Shown piece by piece: positions 10,648 to 40,142 of a stretch of DNA of 64,000 nucleotides. Origin of the DNA: Candidatus Stoquefichus sp. SB1 (lineage in GTDB: Bacteria; Bacillota_I; Bacilli_A; Erysipelotrichales; Coprobacillaceae). The position numbers were made by a program, and so were the translations under genes. The notes under the pieces were generated by a model that saw nothing but the letters and a program-made list of their open reading frames with translations, was not told where the DNA came from and searched no databases. Within the stretch, counting starts at the first letter, position 1, and each line of letters opens with the position of its first letter. Location: positions 62,001-126,000 of the forward strand of contig NZ_LN852695.1 in assembly GCF_001244545.1 (NCBI RefSeq), given 5' to 3'.

Positions 10648-11279
10648 AATAACAATACCTGTTCTTTTAATTCAATTGCTGATTGTTGAATATGCTCTTG
10701 TGCTAAAATAGCACTCACAACAGCTACTCCTGCAACGCCTGTATCCTTTAAAGCCATAATATTTTCATGATGAATTCCACCAATCGCAACCACTGGTATA
10801 GAAACAGCATCACAAATATCCCTTAATGTTTGTTTATCAACTACAATGGCATCATCTTTTGTTTGCGTTGAAAAAACAGCACCCACTCCTAAATAATCAG
10901 CTCCTGCCTGATAAGCACTTACAGCCTGTTCAACAGAATGAACAGAAACTCCTAAAATCTTATTTGGTCCAATTCTTTTTCTTACATCCTTAGCTTGCAT
11001 ATCATGTTGCCCAACATGAATCCCATCTCCATTAACTGCTAACATGACTTCAACATTATCATTAATGATGAAAGGAACATGATATTTTTCACAAAGCTTC
11101 TTCACTTCTTTTGCTTCCTCAATAAAACTTTGATTATCCATATGTTTTTCTCTTAACTGAACACATGTAACACCACCTTTTAATGCTTCTTCAATATCTT
11201 CATAAAAAGAGTGATGTACCCATCTTTGATCAGTCACAAGATATAAACACATTGCTTGTTGTATACTATCTTCTTTCAA
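10644..11279 (-). CDS. thiE: Thiamine phosphate synthase ThiE
   Basis: This 211-residue TIM barrel joins HMP-PP and thiazole phosphate to give thiamine monophosphate. It shows LYLVTDQRW, VTCVQLREKHMD, FIINDNVEVML with GIHVGQHDM (diphosphate binding), LGVSVHS, GADYLGVGAVFSTQTK and VVAIGGI. The start is a TTG at 11279, with GGAGG nine bases upstream; it overlaps the end of thiM by 14 bases, which suggests coupled translation. Confidence 0.93.
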   Translation of the reverse strand: MKEDSIQQAMCLYLVTDQRWVHHSFYEDIEEALKGGVTCVQLREKHMDNQSFIEEAKEVKKLCEKYHVPFIINDNVEVMLAVNGDGIHVGQHDMQAKDVRKRIGPNKILGVSVHSVEQAVSAYQAGADYLGVGAVFSTQTKDDAIVVDKQTLRDICDAVSIPVVAIGGIHHENIMALKDTGVAGVAVVSAILAQEHIQQSAIELKEQVLLL

Positions 11280-12090
11280 CTTTAAGTCCCTCCTCTAAAC
11301 GATGAAAATCCATCAAATAAAGATAATCCATTAAATAAACTCTCAAACTCCCTATTCCTAATTGTTCCTGTTGAATCCTTTGAAAAGCCAATTCACCACT
11401 ATATCCCATAATTGCTGTAGCACAAGCAACAGCTAATAAAACTGACTCTGTATTTGCTGATACATAAACACCAGTTATTGCACTTAACATACATCCTGTT
11501 CCTGTAATCAATGACATTTGTGGACAACCATTTTGAATCAGATAAGCTTCTTTTTCATTCGCAATCACATCTATAGCCCCACTGATAGAAATCACTGCTC
11601 CTGTTTTTTGACTCAATCTTTTAGCAAAAGCAATCACATCATCTCTATTATTTTCATCAATCGCATCTTCCTCGCTTGCATCAACACCTCTTGTCGTTGA
11701 TGTATTTAACGCAATTGCTTTTATCTCTGAAATATTTCCTCTAATGACAGTCATCTTAACTTCATCTAAGAGTTGCTGTATACACTCATTACGTAAAGAA
11801 CTAGCACCAGCCCCAACAGGATCCAATATAACTGGATGTCCTAATGCATTCGCCTTCTTTCCAGCTTTTATCATTGACGCTATTGTTCTTTGATTTAAAG
11901 TTCCAATATTTAAAACCAATCCCTGACAAATACTTGTAATCTCTTCAACCTCTTTCTCATCATCAGCCATAATTGGACTTCCCTTAACAGCTAATACTGC
12001 ATTGGCGCAATCATTCATTGTCACTGCATTTGTTATACAATGAATTAATGGCTTTTTCTCACACACATTTTGCATAATTTTTTCAAACAT
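11266..12090 (-). CDS. thiM: Hydroxyethylthiazole kinase ThiM
   Basis: This enzyme of about 274 residues phosphorylates 4-methyl-5-hydroxyethylthiazole, a salvage step. Key signs are PLIHCITNAVTMNDCANAVLA near the N-terminus, GSPIMADDEKEVEEI, LDPVGAGAS, VIRGNISEI and the GTGCMLSAITG anion hole. The ATG at 12090 has AAAGGAGAG eight bases upstream. The reading frame stays open for another 31 codons, but that stretch is the TPP riboswitch expression platform and is not coding. thiM is the first gene of the operon thiM-thiE-HAD-thiD. Confidence 0.93.
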   Translation of the reverse strand: MFEKIMQNVCEKKPLIHCITNAVTMNDCANAVLAVKGSPIMADDEKEVEEITSICQGLVLNIGTLNQRTIASMIKAGKKANALGHPVILDPVGAGASSLRNECIQQLLDEVKMTVIRGNISEIKAIALNTSTTRGVDASEEDAIDENNRDDVIAFAKRLSQKTGAVISISGAIDVIANEKEAYLIQNGCPQMSLITGTGCMLSAITGVYVSANTESVLLAVACATAIMGYSGELAFQRIQQEQLGIGSLRVYLMDYLYLMDFHRLEEGLKVERR

Positions 12091-12109
12091 CTTATCATCT
12101 CTCCTTTTA

Positions 12110-12141
12110 ATATAAAAAGGAATATGCCCGTGACATATTCC
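12110..12141 (-). terminator. Riboswitch expression-platform terminator
   Basis: On the minus strand GGAATATG and CATATTCC pair around a seven-base loop and are followed by TTTTTATATT. It sits between the TPP aptamer and the thiM ribosome site, so TPP binding probably promotes premature termination. Confidence 0.75.
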
Positions 12142-12158
12142 CTTACTTTGTAAAGTAT

Positions 12159-12238
12159 AAATCCCTCCGTTGGCATTACCCAAATCAGGTGCGGTCGAAG
12201 TTCACAACTTCCTCTCAGCCTATTTATAAGCTCCCGTA
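12159..12238 (-). ncRNA. TPP riboswitch (THI element)
   Basis: Read on the minus strand, the region contains the conserved GGCTGAGAGG, a variable hairpin (GAAGTTGTGAACTTC), ACCGCACCTGATTTGGG, TAATGCCAACGGAGGGA and the 5' partner GGGAGC. These are the J2/3, P3, P4-P5 and P1 hallmarks of the thiamine pyrophosphate aptamer. It lies only about 70 bases upstream of thiM and starts some 11 bases after the noc stop codon. Confidence 0.95.
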
Positions 12239-12248
12239 CTATCATATT

Positions 12249-13022
12249 CTATTTTTTCATCTTAATTATATAAATCATTTCATCATCTGTTTCTTGACTT
12301 TCTACAACTGTTTCTACTCCTGCCTGTTGAACCATCTGTACAGCTTGTTCAATTGTATTCATTGCTATTTTTAAATTTTGAGAAATACTCTTTGTTTTTG
12401 GCTTTGTCTGTGGAACTTTTGGTTCTATCTTACTCTTAATTTTTTGTTCCGTCTGTTCAACATTTAAACCTTTATCCATGATTTCTCTTAACATATTATT
12501 TTGTTTAGCAGTTGTATCTAACTTTAAGAGTGCACGTGCATGTCGCTCTGTAATATCTCTTCTTCTGACAGCTTCCTGAACTGTCATAGGCAATTGTAAT
12601 AATCTTAATTTATTAGCAATTGTTGATTGTTTTTTACCAACTTTTTGAGCCAATTGTTCTTGTGTTAAATTTTGTGTATCAATCAACTGTTGATAAGCCA
12701 AGGCTTCTTCAATTGGTGATAAGTTTTCTCTTTGAATATTTTCAACAATCGCCGCAGTTGCTGTTTGTTGTTCATCTAATGTTTGTACAATACAAGGAAC
12801 TTCATCCAATTTTGCAAGTTTACACGCACGATATCTTCTTTCTCCAACAACAATTTGATATTTACCATTATATGGTCTTACAACAATTGGTTGTAATAAT
12901 CCATTTTGTTGTATAGATACTGATAATTCTTGAATCTTTTCATTTTCAAAATGTGTTCTCGGCTGATTTTCATTAGCAACAATTTGATTAATATCAATAA
13001 ATTTATACATTGGTTCTTTCAC
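12249..13022 (-). CDS. noc: ParB-family protein, Noc-like nucleoid occlusion protein
   Basis: This ParB/Noc-family protein of about 257 residues has the CTP-binding motif GERRYRACK, the ENIQRENLSPIEEALAYQQL segment, and a helix-turn-helix KKQSTIANKLRLLQLP whose QSTIANKLRLL form resembles Noc rather than Spo0J. No ParA lies beside it, and it sits near mnmG-rsmG as noc does in Bacillus. The extended N-terminal amphipathic helix of Bacillus Noc is not evident. I favour the GTG at 13022, eight bases after AAGGAG; the ATG at 13010 is an alternative. A plain ParB cannot be excluded. Confidence 0.8.
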   Translation of the reverse strand: MKEPMYKFIDINQIVANENQPRTHFENEKIQELSVSIQQNGLLQPIVVRPYNGKYQIVVGERRYRACKLAKLDEVPCIVQTLDEQQTATAAIVENIQRENLSPIEEALAYQQLIDTQNLTQEQLAQKVGKKQSTIANKLRLLQLPMTVQEAVRRRDITERHARALLKLDTTAKQNNMLREIMDKGLNVEQTEQKIKSKIEPKVPQTKPKTKSISQNLKIAMNTIEQAVQMVQQAGVETVVESQETDDEMIYIIKMKK

Positions 13023-13090
13023 ATTCTTCACTCCTTATAATCCGTTTCATATTATAACATTTTTCGTAGCGAAACAAAAGATATCTTATG

Positions 13091-13124: not shown

Positions 13125-13733
13125 TTAAAATTTATATTTTCTACCAATTGGCAGTCTTTCTCCATTATTTAATATCAGTTCCTGCCCTTGCTGAGAGTGA
13201 ACATAAGTTTGATTCACAATAATACTTTTATGAATACGTTTAAAATTTATTGGAAGTTTTTTTAGCATATCACTTATTTTCTCTCTTATTCGATATTCAC
13301 TATTTAAGGTATGAATAACGAGATAATGACCATATGATTCAATATAAGTGATTTGACTACTTTCTAATTGAATATGTGTATAACCTATTTTTAATGTTAA
13401 TATACTTTCTAGATTTTGATAAATTTTTGTAATCACATGAATGATATTTTCAATATCATTATCAAACTGATCTTTACGGATAAAACCTAGAGGGCTATAA
13501 TCTAGTGCTAAAAATATCAATTCAGCATTATTTAAAATATAGATAACGGTATGACTAGGATAAACATGTGATTGTAAATCCCAAATAGAATTAACTTCTT
13601 TAAATACAATGAATGGTTCTTTCAGGTTTTCATATGATACATATTGGATATGAGCAATAAAACGATTAAGATGAGTTTGGATATGTTGAAAAAGATAGTT
13701 ATCTTTAGTATCTATATAAACATTAAGTTTCAT
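13125..13733 (-). CDS. LytTR-family DNA-binding regulator (module 1)
   Basis: The C-terminal half (about residues 105-202) is a LytTR domain: ITYIESYGHYLVIHT, the RIREKISDMLKKLP helix, FKRIHKSIIVNQTYV and LNNGERLPIGRKYK. The N-terminal 100 residues resemble a response-regulator receiver fold in outline, but I see no phosphorylatable Asp context, so control by phosphorylation is unlikely. The gene overlaps the upstream membrane-protein gene by 11 bases. By analogy with LytTR regulatory systems such as HdrRM and BrsRM, the membrane partner may hold this regulator inactive. Targets are unknown apart from probable autoregulation. Confidence 0.82.
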   Translation of the reverse strand: MKLNVYIDTKDNYLFQHIQTHLNRFIAHIQYVSYENLKEPFIVFKEVNSIWDLQSHVYPSHTVIYILNNAELIFLALDYSPLGFIRKDQFDNDIENIIHVITKIYQNLESILTLKIGYTHIQLESSQITYIESYGHYLVIHTLNSEYRIREKISDMLKKLPINFKRIHKSIIVNQTYVHSQQGQELILNNGERLPIGRKYKF

Positions 13734-14361
13734 TGTCTTTCCTCACTTTCTCAATATATTCAGCAAATCTCATAGTTGTATCTTGTAAAGCATCTTTAAT
13801 ATGGTAAGGATCGTCTATATGAATACCTAATTGTTCGATATATTCAAGTCCTCTTAAACAATTTTGTTTTTCAAAATAAAGATTATCTGGCATGATGCGT
13901 ATCAATGTTCCATCTTTTAAAGTTATATTAAAGATAATGGAATGTCCTTTTTGCGCCCAGCCCATATAAACATCACTATATAATAATGTAAAATGGTCAA
14001 TATCATTTATCTTGATTTGTAAATCCGGTATCTGAGGCTGATTGAATATTAAGCGAAATGATTGTAAATATCTATCTTTGAGATGAGTCGTAGCATAATA
14101 AGAAAGATGTGTTTTATCAATCTCTATATATTGTTTACTCCCATATGTTGATAGACCAACAATAGTTGCAATCATATATATCAAAACAAGTGCAATCTTC
14201 ATTCCTCCTAAGGCATAAGGAGTTGTTTGAAAAAATGAGTTTCCTTTAAACAAACTAATCAAAAAATAATACACTCCTACATATCCAATTAAACCGCTTA
14301 TCAAGTCAAGCAAAATCAGTTTACGACTTGTTAACTTACCAATAATGACTTTATCTTTCAT
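13723..14361 (-). CDS. Two-TM membrane protein paired with LytTR (module 1)
   Basis: This 212-residue protein of unknown family has two hydrophobic segments (about residues 15-36 and 52-72) and a cytosolic C-terminal beta-rich region, including DIDHFTLLYSD, FNITLKDGTLIRIMP and YIEQLGIHIDDPYHIKDAL. The organisation suggests a membrane-anchored PH-like sensor, but this is inference. It is encoded just upstream of, and overlapping, a LytTR regulator, and has a paralogue in the same arrangement at 38929-39513. A membrane-bound regulator of the LytTR protein is the working idea. Confidence 0.65.
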   Translation of the reverse strand: MKDKVIIGKLTSRKLILLDLISGLIGYVGVYYFLISLFKGNSFFQTTPYALGGMKIALVLIYMIATIVGLSTYGSKQYIEIDKTHLSYYATTHLKDRYLQSFRLIFNQPQIPDLQIKINDIDHFTLLYSDVYMGWAQKGHSIIFNITLKDGTLIRIMPDNLYFEKQNCLRGLEYIEQLGIHIDDPYHIKDALQDTTMRFAEYIEKVRKDNET

Positions 14362-14384
14362 TTCTTTCTCCTCCTGACATATTC

Positions 14385-14393
14385 ATTATATCA
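14385..14393 (-). promoter_or_regulatory. Extended -10 promoter of LytTR module 1
   Basis: On the minus strand TGATATAAT gives an extended -10, with TATAAT at 14385-14390. The matching -35 position (ATGATA, 14408-14413) is poor, as expected of an activator-dependent promoter. Confidence 0.5.
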
Positions 14394-14414
14394 ATAGTTA
14401 TATCTTTTATCATG

Positions 14415-14444
14415 TTTTAGGCATAAACAACCTTTTTTCAGGCA
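14415..14444 (-). promoter_or_regulatory. Direct repeats upstream of LytTR module 1, candidate LytTR binding site
   Basis: On the minus strand TGCCTGAAA and TGCCTAAAA are direct repeats 21 bases apart (9-bp repeats, 12-bp gap), lying immediately upstream of the weak -35. LytTR proteins typically bind 9-bp direct repeats with 12-13 bp between them. This suggests autoregulation by the LytTR gene of the same operon. Confidence 0.5.
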
Positions 14445-14472
14445 CAAAAAAAGACGAATAGTTATCGTCTTA
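14445..14472 (-). terminator. Intrinsic terminator of mnmG-rsmG
   Basis: On the minus strand AAGACGA and TTCGTCTT form a stem followed by T7. It overlaps the rsmG stop codon. Confidence 0.8.
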
Positions 14473-15174
14473 TAATGGTTTCTTTTTAATTTGTCCAAAT
14501 GCTCTAGGATATTTAGCAGGCGTTGTCTTAATTTTTTGAATATAAATATTACAACGATGATCATTTTCATCTGTTAATGTAAAATCAACTTCATTCATGA
14601 CTTTTCCACCTAATTTCTCAATTCCCTGTTTTGCTTCACTCAATTCCTCTTTTGCTTTTAATCCTTTTAAAGTGATAAAATAACCACTAGGTTTTACCAA
14701 AGGTAAACACAATTCATCAAGAATATTCAATCTTGCAACGGCTCTTGCTGTTACTATATCAAAAGATTCACGATGATCTTTAGCATATTCTTCTGCTCTT
14801 GCACTTATGGCTTCAACCTGATCTAACTGTAAAACTTCTACTAAATGTTTTAAGAAAGTTATACGTTTTGTTAGTGAATCAACAATTGTGATTTTTAAAT
14901 CAGGATAAATGATTTTTAATGGAATAGATGGAAATCCTGCCCCTGCACCAATATCACATAAAGATTGATGATTAAAACCATAATCAAAAGAAATTGTTAA
15001 TGAATCATAGAAATGTTTAAGATAAACATCTTCTTTTTGAGTAATAGCTGTTAGATTCATTTTGTTATTCCATTCTATTAATGTTTCATAATATTGATGA
15101 AATTGTTGTAATTGTTTATTTGTAAGTGTGATTCCTTGTTTTAATAAGGCTTCAATAAATTGTTCTTGGTTCAT
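14470..15174 (-). CDS. rsmG: 16S rRNA (guanine527-N7)-methyltransferase RsmG
   Basis: This 234-residue Rossmann-fold methyltransferase shows the GidB hallmarks: WNNKMNLTAIT, HFYDSL, the SAM-binding LCDIGAGAGFPSIPLKI, VDSLTKRITFLKHLVE, and TARAVARLNILDELCLP. It methylates G527 of 16S rRNA on the 30S subunit. It follows mnmG by nine bases, the standard Bacillota order. The usual neighbour noc is displaced by about 1.4 kb because of the LytTR module. Confidence 0.96.
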   Translation of the reverse strand: MNQEQFIEALLKQGITLTNKQLQQFHQYYETLIEWNNKMNLTAITQKEDVYLKHFYDSLTISFDYGFNHQSLCDIGAGAGFPSIPLKIIYPDLKITIVDSLTKRITFLKHLVEVLQLDQVEAISARAEEYAKDHRESFDIVTARAVARLNILDELCLPLVKPSGYFITLKGLKAKEELSEAKQGIEKLGGKVMNEVDFTLTDENDHRCNIYIQKIKTTPAKYPRAFGQIKKKPL

Positions 15175-38280: not shown

Positions 38281-38307
38281 CAAAAATGAACTCATTGATT
38301 GAGTTCA
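38281..38307 (-). terminator. Intrinsic terminator of the second LytTR module
   Basis: On the minus strand TGAACTCA and TGAGTTCA form a stem overlapping the stop codon, followed by TTTTTG. Confidence 0.8.
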
Positions 38308-38936
38308 TGAATTGTTTCTTTATACATTCGCCCTAATGGAATAACCTCTCCATTATTTAAATAAATTTCTTTTGCATTATAACTTTTAATTTTTCTTTTA
38401 TTCACTACAAATGATTTATGAACTTGAATAAAACCAACTTCTGATATCTCCTTCATAAGTTCTTTGAGATTTTTTCTTTCATGCATCTCACCATTAATTG
38501 AATGAATAATAATTTGATGTCTTAATGATTCGATATAAAATATATCTGAAAGTCTGATTTTCACTTTCATAGAACCCTTTTGATAAATATAATAACGAAA
38601 ATGTTCTTGAATTTGTTTTAAGACGACATCTTTATAAAAATAGAGTTCATTTTCTAATTGATGACTTTTAAAATACAAATTAATTTGATAACATAAACTT
38701 TTTTGAAGAATTTCAAAGTTTTCTGGTCCTATCATATAAATAAGAGTATCCAAATTTCTCTTTATATTCATATACTTTTGTAAGTCATCCTGACATTTTA
38801 TTTCGATAAAATAAATGTCATATTGTCTTGTCATAAGAAATTCATTAATTTCAAATTCTTGGATATTCTCTTTTAAAAATGTTTCAATCATTTTCTTTTT
38901 TATTTGATCTTGAGAGATAATTGTACATCTAATCAT
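38292..38936 (-). CDS. LytTR-family DNA-binding regulator (module 2)
   Basis: This 214-residue protein has a C-terminal LytTR domain (about residues 118-214): LSDIFYIESLRHQIIIHS, MHERKNLKELMKEI, FIQVHKSFVVNKRKI and LNNGEVIPLGRMYKETI. The N-terminal half looks like a highly diverged receiver without a clear phospho-Asp. It overlaps the upstream membrane-protein gene by eight bases. It is a diverged parallel of the module at 13125-14361 and probably works with its membrane partner. Confidence 0.82.
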   Translation of the reverse strand: MIRCTIISQDQIKKKMIETFLKENIQEFEINEFLMTRQYDIYFIEIKCQDDLQKYMNIKRNLDTLIYMIGPENFEILQKSLCYQINLYFKSHQLENELYFYKDVVLKQIQEHFRYYIYQKGSMKVKIRLSDIFYIESLRHQIIIHSINGEMHERKNLKELMKEISEVGFIQVHKSFVVNKRKIKSYNAKEIYLNNGEVIPLGRMYKETIHELNQ

Positions 38937-39513
38937 CTTGATCAGCCTCCAATTTCTCTAAGTAATATGATAAATAACCACCCGTATTTAAGTAATCCAA
39001 TATTTTCAGTGAATCTTTAAATTGAATGCCATGATTTTTAAGATATTCTACTGCTTGACAAAATGTTTCTCTATCTCTAGTAACCAATGACTCAAATGTA
39101 TAAGTAGAACCATCATACATATTCACCACAAACAATAAATCATAACCATAAGTTCCAAATGGTGCTCTATTGACTTTTTGATACGTTACCTTAATATAAT
39201 CAATCTGATCTAAATTGAGCATCATTTGATAAACATGCTTTCTATGCCATAGGAACTGATAGAAACCCATAATTTTATCTATAAAAGAATAATGATAAGT
39301 ATAATATAATTTATTCTTATCAACTTTCCACATCACCTGACAATAAGCAATGCCTGGAATGACAATTCCTATTAAAATAACATCGAGTACAATTGCAAAT
39401 AAGCGAATGCCCTGCCATGCATTTGCATCATACAAAAAATAAGAAAAAATAAATATGACGAATGTATATGCGAGTGCTGACTTTAATTTAGGTTGACCAA
39501 CTTTTCTTTCCAT
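38929..39513 (-). CDS. Two-TM membrane protein paired with LytTR (module 2)
   Basis: This 194-residue protein has hydrophobic segments at about residues 12-28 and 37-58, then a cytosolic region with VDKNKLYYTYHYS, QIDYIKVTYQK, YGYDLLFVVNMYDGSTYTFES and YLKNHGIQFKDSLKILDYL. That last stretch aligns with YIEQLGIHIDDPYHIKDAL in the protein at 13723-14361, so the two are probably paralogues. Function is unknown; a membrane-bound partner of the downstream LytTR regulator is inferred from the overlap. Confidence 0.65.
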   Translation of the reverse strand: MERKVGQPKLKSALAYTFVIFIFSYFLYDANAWQGIRLFAIVLDVILIGIVIPGIAYCQVMWKVDKNKLYYTYHYSFIDKIMGFYQFLWHRKHVYQMMLNLDQIDYIKVTYQKVNRAPFGTYGYDLLFVVNMYDGSTYTFESLVTRDRETFCQAVEYLKNHGIQFKDSLKILDYLNTGGYLSYYLEKLEADQDD

Positions 39514-39528
39514 AATAATCCTCTTTTC

Positions 39529-40044
39529 TTATTTATTTTTAAAATAAACAACTGTAGAAATAATGAGTATGCTAAGTGCAATAACAAGATAACTATTGTG
39601 TAAAAGAAATCCTAAAAATGATGAATTATGATAGGGTGTAGTAAAAGTATACCACAGTCCAAATATGGCTAAAAGGATAAGTCCCTCTTTAATACCTAGG
39701 CTTGCTATAGTGGAGTATGAATTTCGCGTATTTTCCCCAAATAACTCTTTTTGATTGGATGGCATGTCTTTATACATAACCAGATAATCTTCATAGTTAT
39801 CAGGTGATGATGATAATAATTTCCATCCATCATTTTGATACTGACTTATTACTTTTGGAGACACATTTAATAATTGATAGACTCTCTGATCATTATTTGA
39901 TTTCACAAATCGATAAATATTGACTTTTAATGGCGCAAATAAAGTAAATGGAATTATCGTTCTTAAAATATAACCTTTTTGGGCTTTCTTATTGAAATAA
40001 GCCTCTGTTGCTACTGGATTTAAATCACTTTTTATTGTATACAT
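39529..40044 (-). CDS. DUF2812-like membrane protein
   Basis: This 171-residue protein has an N-terminal DUF2812-like cytosolic part (SDLNPVATEAYFNKKAQKGY, YQNDGWKLLSSSPDNYEDYLVMYKDM) and two C-terminal hydrophobic segments (about residues 112-130 and 148-168). DUF2812 proteins often sit beside PadR-type regulators; here the partner is a LytTR module 15 bases downstream. Its role is not known. Confidence 0.72.
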   Translation of the reverse strand: MYTIKSDLNPVATEAYFNKKAQKGYILRTIIPFTLFAPLKVNIYRFVKSNNDQRVYQLLNVSPKVISQYQNDGWKLLSSSPDNYEDYLVMYKDMPSNQKELFGENTRNSYSTIASLGIKEGLILLAIFGLWYTFTTPYHNSSFLGFLLHNSYLVIALSILIISTVVYFKNK

Positions 40045-40142
40045 TTTCTAAACCTCCTTACACCTGTATTATACTCTCTTTTATAAAACAAAAAACAACC
40101 CTGACATCAACAGATTATAAACGGCTCCAACTGCATGAATTT

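Follow-up and report, generated by a model that had tools for sequence, protein, structure and literature searches.

A conserved gene pair for a membrane protein and a LytTR regulator in Candidatus Stoquefichus sp. SB1 that resembles LytTR Regulatory Systems

Between rsmG and noc of Candidatus Stoquefichus sp. SB1 lie two overlapping genes for a small membrane protein (M) and a LytTR regulator (R), which we consider fairly probably to be a positively autoregulated membrane-inhibitor/activator pair resembling the LytTR Regulatory Systems (LRS), with R also activating an FtsX-type ABC transporter operon. In the best reading the pair departs from known LRS in that its gene order is turned round, its membrane module is new and its regulator carries a pseudo-receiver. 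The stretch studied, here called the window, comprises 64,000 nucleotides (G000:C5:62001-126000) of a genome of 3.59 Mb. The pair would extend LRS, in a form with a new membrane module, to Erysipelotrichales of the gut, and its analysis predicts concrete targets, namely FtsX-type ABC transporters. The switching mechanisms of pseudo-receiver regulators were called a mystery by a 2025 review (PMC12632262); a family that joins a pseudo-receiver to a conserved linked membrane partner and a defined operator makes this question directly testable.

According to the ORF list, the M and R genes share 11 bases on the minus strand, so that both ORFs and the overlap originally proposed for a two-TM protein and a LytTR regulator were confirmed. 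The pair is directly preceded by an intrinsic terminator of rsmG, the T run of which overlaps the distal half-site of the operator described below, and therefore has its own promoter. The original prediction had the pair inserted in a normally conserved operon. This agrees with relative G052, where rsmG is separated from noc by just 8 bp, without a gene pair in between, and a pair is located about 1.7 kb past noc, on the other strand. Elsewhere in this region, a TPP riboswitch (RF00059, 60.2 bits) was found at 12145-12247 (minus strand), upstream of a thiamine-related gene (11266-12183).

Table 1. Features of the two M-R loci (positions in the window)
Feature	Position	Strand	Remarks
noc	12249-13031		ORF; NCBIfam nucleoid_noc, 325 bits
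R	13125-13733	-	ORF; 202-aa regulator: pseudo-receiver (1-108) and LytTR DNA-binding domain (109-202)
M	13723-14361	-	ORF; 212-aa membrane protein, first gene of the pair
-10, M-R	14385-14390	-	Extended (TG-A-TATAAT)
-35, M-R	14408-14413	-	ATGATA, weak
Proximal half-site, M-R	14419-14429	-	TGTTTATGCCT, LytTR-type; 31 bp separate its GTTTATG from the -10
Distal half-site, M-R	14440-14450	-	TTTTTGTGCCT; 21 bp upstream of the proximal one
Intrinsic terminator of rsmG	14451-14471	-	Directly upstream of M-R
rsmG	14470-15174		M-R lies between rsmG and noc
R2	38292-38936	-	214 aa; second regulator with pseudo-receiver and LytTR domain; shares 8 bases with M2
M2	38929-39513	-	Paralogous membrane protein, 194 aa
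Weakly DUF2812-like membrane protein	39529-40044	-	Opens the M2-R2 operon; E 0.015, not reaching the Pfam cut-off
-10, M2-R2	40068-40073	-	TATAAT
Proximal half-site, M2-R2	40102-40112	-	TGTTGATGTCA; 31 bp separate its GTTGATG from the -10
Distal half-site, M2-R2	40122-40132	-	AGTTGGAGCCG; 20 bp upstream of the proximal one

M homologues were present in 17 of the 43 genomes of the family. The original prediction would have been refuted by a pair not conserved together in relatives; the pairing was kept, with an overlapping R (LytTR) gene directly downstream of M in 27 of the 31 homologues examined in the family. Two of the other four were broken or truncated (one with an in-frame stop), one was short and the last (L050) is unexplained. 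R also follows three more distantly related M genes (L069, L070 and L071), and M precedes R in all intact pairs, both the 27 of the family and these three. With a profile of M, matches were obtained in 33 of the 294 genomes searched in the order and in 13 of 392 sampled throughout the phylum; nearly all came from this family and order. Among named organisms, Candidatus Stoquefichus massiliensis (same genus, G001) and Longibaculum muris have the homologues closest to M, and a contig search with a closer M alignment gave matches only in these two species. Searches of plasmids and phages did not find an M homologue. The distance matrices of M and R were correlated (r = 0.87, 0 of 5000 permutations), which is expected from partnership and from shared vertical descent alike. 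The comparison of genomes supports M and R as a conserved unit.

The window contains a second pair, M2-R2, which is located upstream of rsmA/ksgA and behind the weakly DUF2812-like gene. Ca. Stoquefichus massiliensis carries both pairs, each at the matching place.

The repeats noted first, TGCCTGAAA (14444-14436) and TGCCTAAAA (14423-14415), lie 21 bp apart. They had been described as phased by 21 bp and abutting a weak -35 with an extended -10, and these positions were found to be correct, the promoter scoring 10/12. The TGCCTRAAA repeats are the 3' part of the half-sites, for which GTTTATGCC gives a better register. Alone they are weak evidence, and a repeat finder did not report them, as would be expected of chance repeats beside chance neighbours between rsmG and noc; that reading has a next to negligible probability, being refuted by the conservation of both pairing and operator across the family. 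Once compared across relatives, the putative half-sites are highly significant. When 24 non-redundant upstream regions were aligned by their -10 boxes, which had been picked automatically, a single block proved conserved, GTT[TG][AG]TG[CT]CA, and its GTTnnTG is separated from the -10 by 31 bp. Over 11 columns this block carries 5.72 bits of information, and none of 2000 rotations gave more than 2.63. A second copy of the half-site peaked 20-21 bp further upstream, which was reached in 0 of 500 shuffles. Common descent of the aligned promoters makes them less independent than the shuffle figures imply. This information content was a far stronger signal than a fixed literature consensus, which was tried against the automatic -10 picks and whose weak signal was reached by 10 of 5000 random rotations. 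Several pairs (e.g. L008, L069 and L071) had no clear half-site in the orientation facing M. In the subclade of L005, L047 and L048, the spacing of the TGCC/TGCT copies in front of M is 19 bp and not 20-21.

The pattern GTTKRTGYC-N29-TATAAT had exactly two matches in the 3.59-Mb genome, both at the M-R operons; it was drawn partly from these two operons, and the informative part is the absence of others. In the 43 genomes of the family 15 matches were found, versus one for the reversed control. Five of these were M-R promoters, three were upstream of an ABC permease gene, two were in other non-coding DNA and five were inside long ORFs. A search of the own genome with two mismatches was discarded, as its 135 matches (115 for the reversed control) are attributable to chance except for the best few. 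A strict operator-promoter match (L141, G046:C77:4083-4126) is found upstream of a gene for a 179-aa protein with a signal-peptide-like start, with an M-R pair a few kb away. The repeats behave as a candidate LytTR operator, as the promoter comparison supports. R could be an autorepressor, with M as co-repressor or anti-repressor, in the manner of the LytTR protein CoxC, which represses from repeats overlapping the -35 (PMC11347149). However, half-sites that precede a weak -35 and an extended -10 are the layout of LytTR activators and the 31-bp geometry recurs in many promoters, and we therefore regard repression as improbable.

The three matches in front of ABC permease genes were L133, L137 and L143, and the FtsX domain was confirmed by Pfam for L137 only (E 2.7e-10). 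The L137 permease has an orthologue with 69% identity in the own genome, and one of the six matches obtained there with one mismatch was immediately upstream of the orthologue. This permease operon (L147, outside the window; G000:C5:617920-619242, and 617920-619305 with its operator and -10) is preceded by CAGTGATGTCA-9 bp-TGTTTATGCCA-28 bp-TATACT, with the second half-site 20 bp from the first. Judged by this promoter, the FtsX-type ABC transporter operon of the own genome is predicted to be a third target of the LytTR regulators, a prediction made in one species that was borne out in another. Most ABC permease homologues in other genomes do not have the operator, and the permease is therefore no fixed target of the whole family. 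In four relatives (L114, L115, L117 and L125) the half-sites upstream of M face away from it, towards a divergent gene. A -10-like hexamer was present 31 bp downstream in three of them (distances counted by eye on the printed sequence), the gene encoding an FtsX-type ABC permease in two and a small predicted protein in one.

R matched the LytTR family (PF04397, 59.7 bits). In its structural model (pLDDT 94), residues 1-108 are receiver-like (Z about 12), the LytTR domain compares with AgrA LytTR structures at a Z of about 14.9, and the overall structure resembles full-length ComE. R thus shares with LytTR response regulators of the ComE/AgrA type a receiver-like plus LytTR architecture and direct-repeat operators upstream of the -35. 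Unlike them, it lacks the DD pair and a conserved phospho-acceptor Asp, and its linked partner is no histidine kinase. The residues were judged by alignment with the canonical LytTR regulators of the own genome, nearly all of which differ from R at these positions; in the R family the acidic DD pair is lost and the position of the phospho-acceptor Asp is mostly Glu. By this alignment, the usual phosphorylation cannot take place in the receiver-like domain. That R is an ordinary two-component response regulator with its histidine kinase elsewhere, M being unrelated, would suit the ComE-like combination of domains and the Asp that 4 of 29 family members retain at the aligned position. It is nevertheless most improbable in view of the altered residues, the conserved linkage of M and R, and the absence of a histidine kinase gene among the ORFs between 9 and 19 kb in the window.

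The Pfam search and structure prediction proposed at the outset for M gave no family and a likely PH-like fold, respectively. M matched neither Pfam nor NCBIfam, Pfam gave nothing convincing over 30 M members, and the best hit of a PDB sequence search had an E of 0.07 and was no relative. The AlphaFold model (pLDDT 92) consists of a strand at residues 5-8, TM helices at 13-39 and 48-73 and then an alpha/beta cytosolic domain, which specifies the two-TM protein with a beta-rich cytosolic part of the original prediction as a TM hairpin with a probable PH-like domain. The best VIA-align matches were nearly all PH-superfold chains (Pob3/SSRP1, Rtt106, p62, FERM and bacterial 3dcx), with Z 6-8 (best 8.2), and the best Foldseek match had a weak E of 0.05 (prob 0.99); a PH-like fold of the cytosolic domain is likely, not certain. 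The VIA-align matches span residues 1 to about 185, with only 80-108 aligned, an extent that would make strand 1 part of the PH-like fold, with the TM hairpin inserted behind it. Bacterial PH-like domains (PF08000, 3dcx; PMC2817789) are like M in its predicted fold (3dcx, Z 6.9, 93 residues) and unlike it in that M has no Pfam sequence match and carries a TM hairpin between strand 1 and the remaining fold.

There are paralogues that join the complete M module to a MerR HTH domain (PF13411, with E values of about 1e-17 to 1e-21). Together with the M-R pairing, these fusions argue that the module controls transcription factors; the fusion only indicates that the module accompanies DNA-binding domains and does not give the sign of control. 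The own genome contains one MerR-M fusion (L093, G000:C5 near 48.4-49.3 kb) with an in-frame TGA in the HTH region, and intact relatives of it are L095, L098 and L099. Five short paralogues (L072, L074, L096, L097 and L100; about 140-149 aa) match only the C-terminal (PH-like) part of the profile, with no TM hairpin seen, and may be natural hairpin-less versions of M.

LytTR/membrane-inhibitor systems with this promoter geometry were defined in a 2018 paper as LRS, according to which they have been characterised only in S. mutans, in the form of HdrRM, BrsRM, SMU_294/295, SMU_433/434 and SMU_1070c/1069c (PMC6193735). M-R is like these systems in combining a LytTR regulator and a small non-enzymatic membrane protein in one operon, and in the association of some systems with ABC transporters. 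It also shares their arrangement of direct repeats. In LRS these are 9 bp long, lie 11-12 bp apart in S. mutans (11-13 bp as a defining feature) and are followed closely by a weak -35 and an (extended) -10; in M-R the half-sites are 20-21 bp apart from start to start. The distance from half-site to -10 in S. mutans (mostly 8-11 bp plus -35 and spacer) agrees with the 31 bp of M-R (PMC6193735). Unlike in M-R, the regulator gene comes first in S. mutans and the regulators have no receiver domain. The S. mutans membrane proteins contain DUF3021/DUF2154 in four of five types (PMC6193735), whereas M is predicted to be PH-like, without a Pfam family, and 30 members lacked a DUF3021/DUF2154 match (a separation made by Pfam only). 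A gene order and a membrane-protein type different from those of HdrRM and BrsRM had been noted from the start, and both differences hold. The second pair in the window, the pseudo-receiver, the PH-like fold and the ABC-transporter target were not part of the original prediction. 'LRS-like' operons with the membrane gene upstream of the LytTR regulator were reported in the Bacteroides fragilis group (PMC6193735), which like M-R encode the membrane protein first and have repeats upstream of the promoter. There, however, the membrane protein has NfeD and DUF2154, the regulator has transmembrane segments, and the repeats are of 11 bp with 11-bp spacing. The suggestion of a new class was therefore too strong, LRS and M-first operons having been described before, although the pair does have features of a new variant. 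No earlier description of a PH domain paired with LytTR was found in the literature covered, which excluded subscription journals. As far as visible M-R works like an LRS, yet it is not of the S. mutans type.

The computational analysis supports the gene pairing, the operator, the fold and the target promoters; beyond these we infer DNA binding by R, inhibition by M, contact between M and the pseudo-receiver, and a signal. R would be a LytTR activator that binds the two direct half-sites that closely precede the weak -35 of the operon encoding it, giving positive feedback, and it probably also activates the FtsX-type ABC transporter operon of the same genome. M would hold R inactive at the membrane, probably via the pseudo-receiver, and release it when the membrane, a lipid or peptide ligand or a partner transporter changes state. 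The TM hairpin with its short loop and the link to ABC transporters suggest that M may sense the membrane itself or act via the transporter. Inhibition by M is proposed by analogy with S. mutans, where all five LRS membrane proteins tested are inhibitors and deletion of the membrane protein induces the operon (PMC6193735). Since these systems have the same promoter design, we consider it unlikely that M is instead a positive partner, which would sense a signal and activate R in the manner of a kinase but without phosphorylation, so that deletion of M would silence the operon. The ancestry of the pseudo-receiver, suggesting a receiver that once answered a sensor protein, and the M-first order, which resembles sensor-regulator operons, do speak for such a role.

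Beyond the pair as an LRS-like inhibitor and activator, we tentatively raise a wider possibility, which we hold to be rather doubtful: that a PH-like domain with a TM hairpin after strand 1 is a general membrane switch for transcription factors of Erysipelotrichales, replacing the histidine kinase and directly controlling the pseudo-receiver. If true, this switch would act in trans on pseudo-receiver/LytTR proteins, and in cis in the MerR fusions.

The own genome has four further operons (L015-L018) in which a small LytTR gene is followed by a gene for a small predicted membrane protein. We do not claim these as classical LRS, as Pfam gave no DUF3021 in the membrane proteins of the two tested. 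Upstream of L017 the arrangement ACCATATAT-12 bp-ACCACTTAT is present, which resembles classical LRS repeats.
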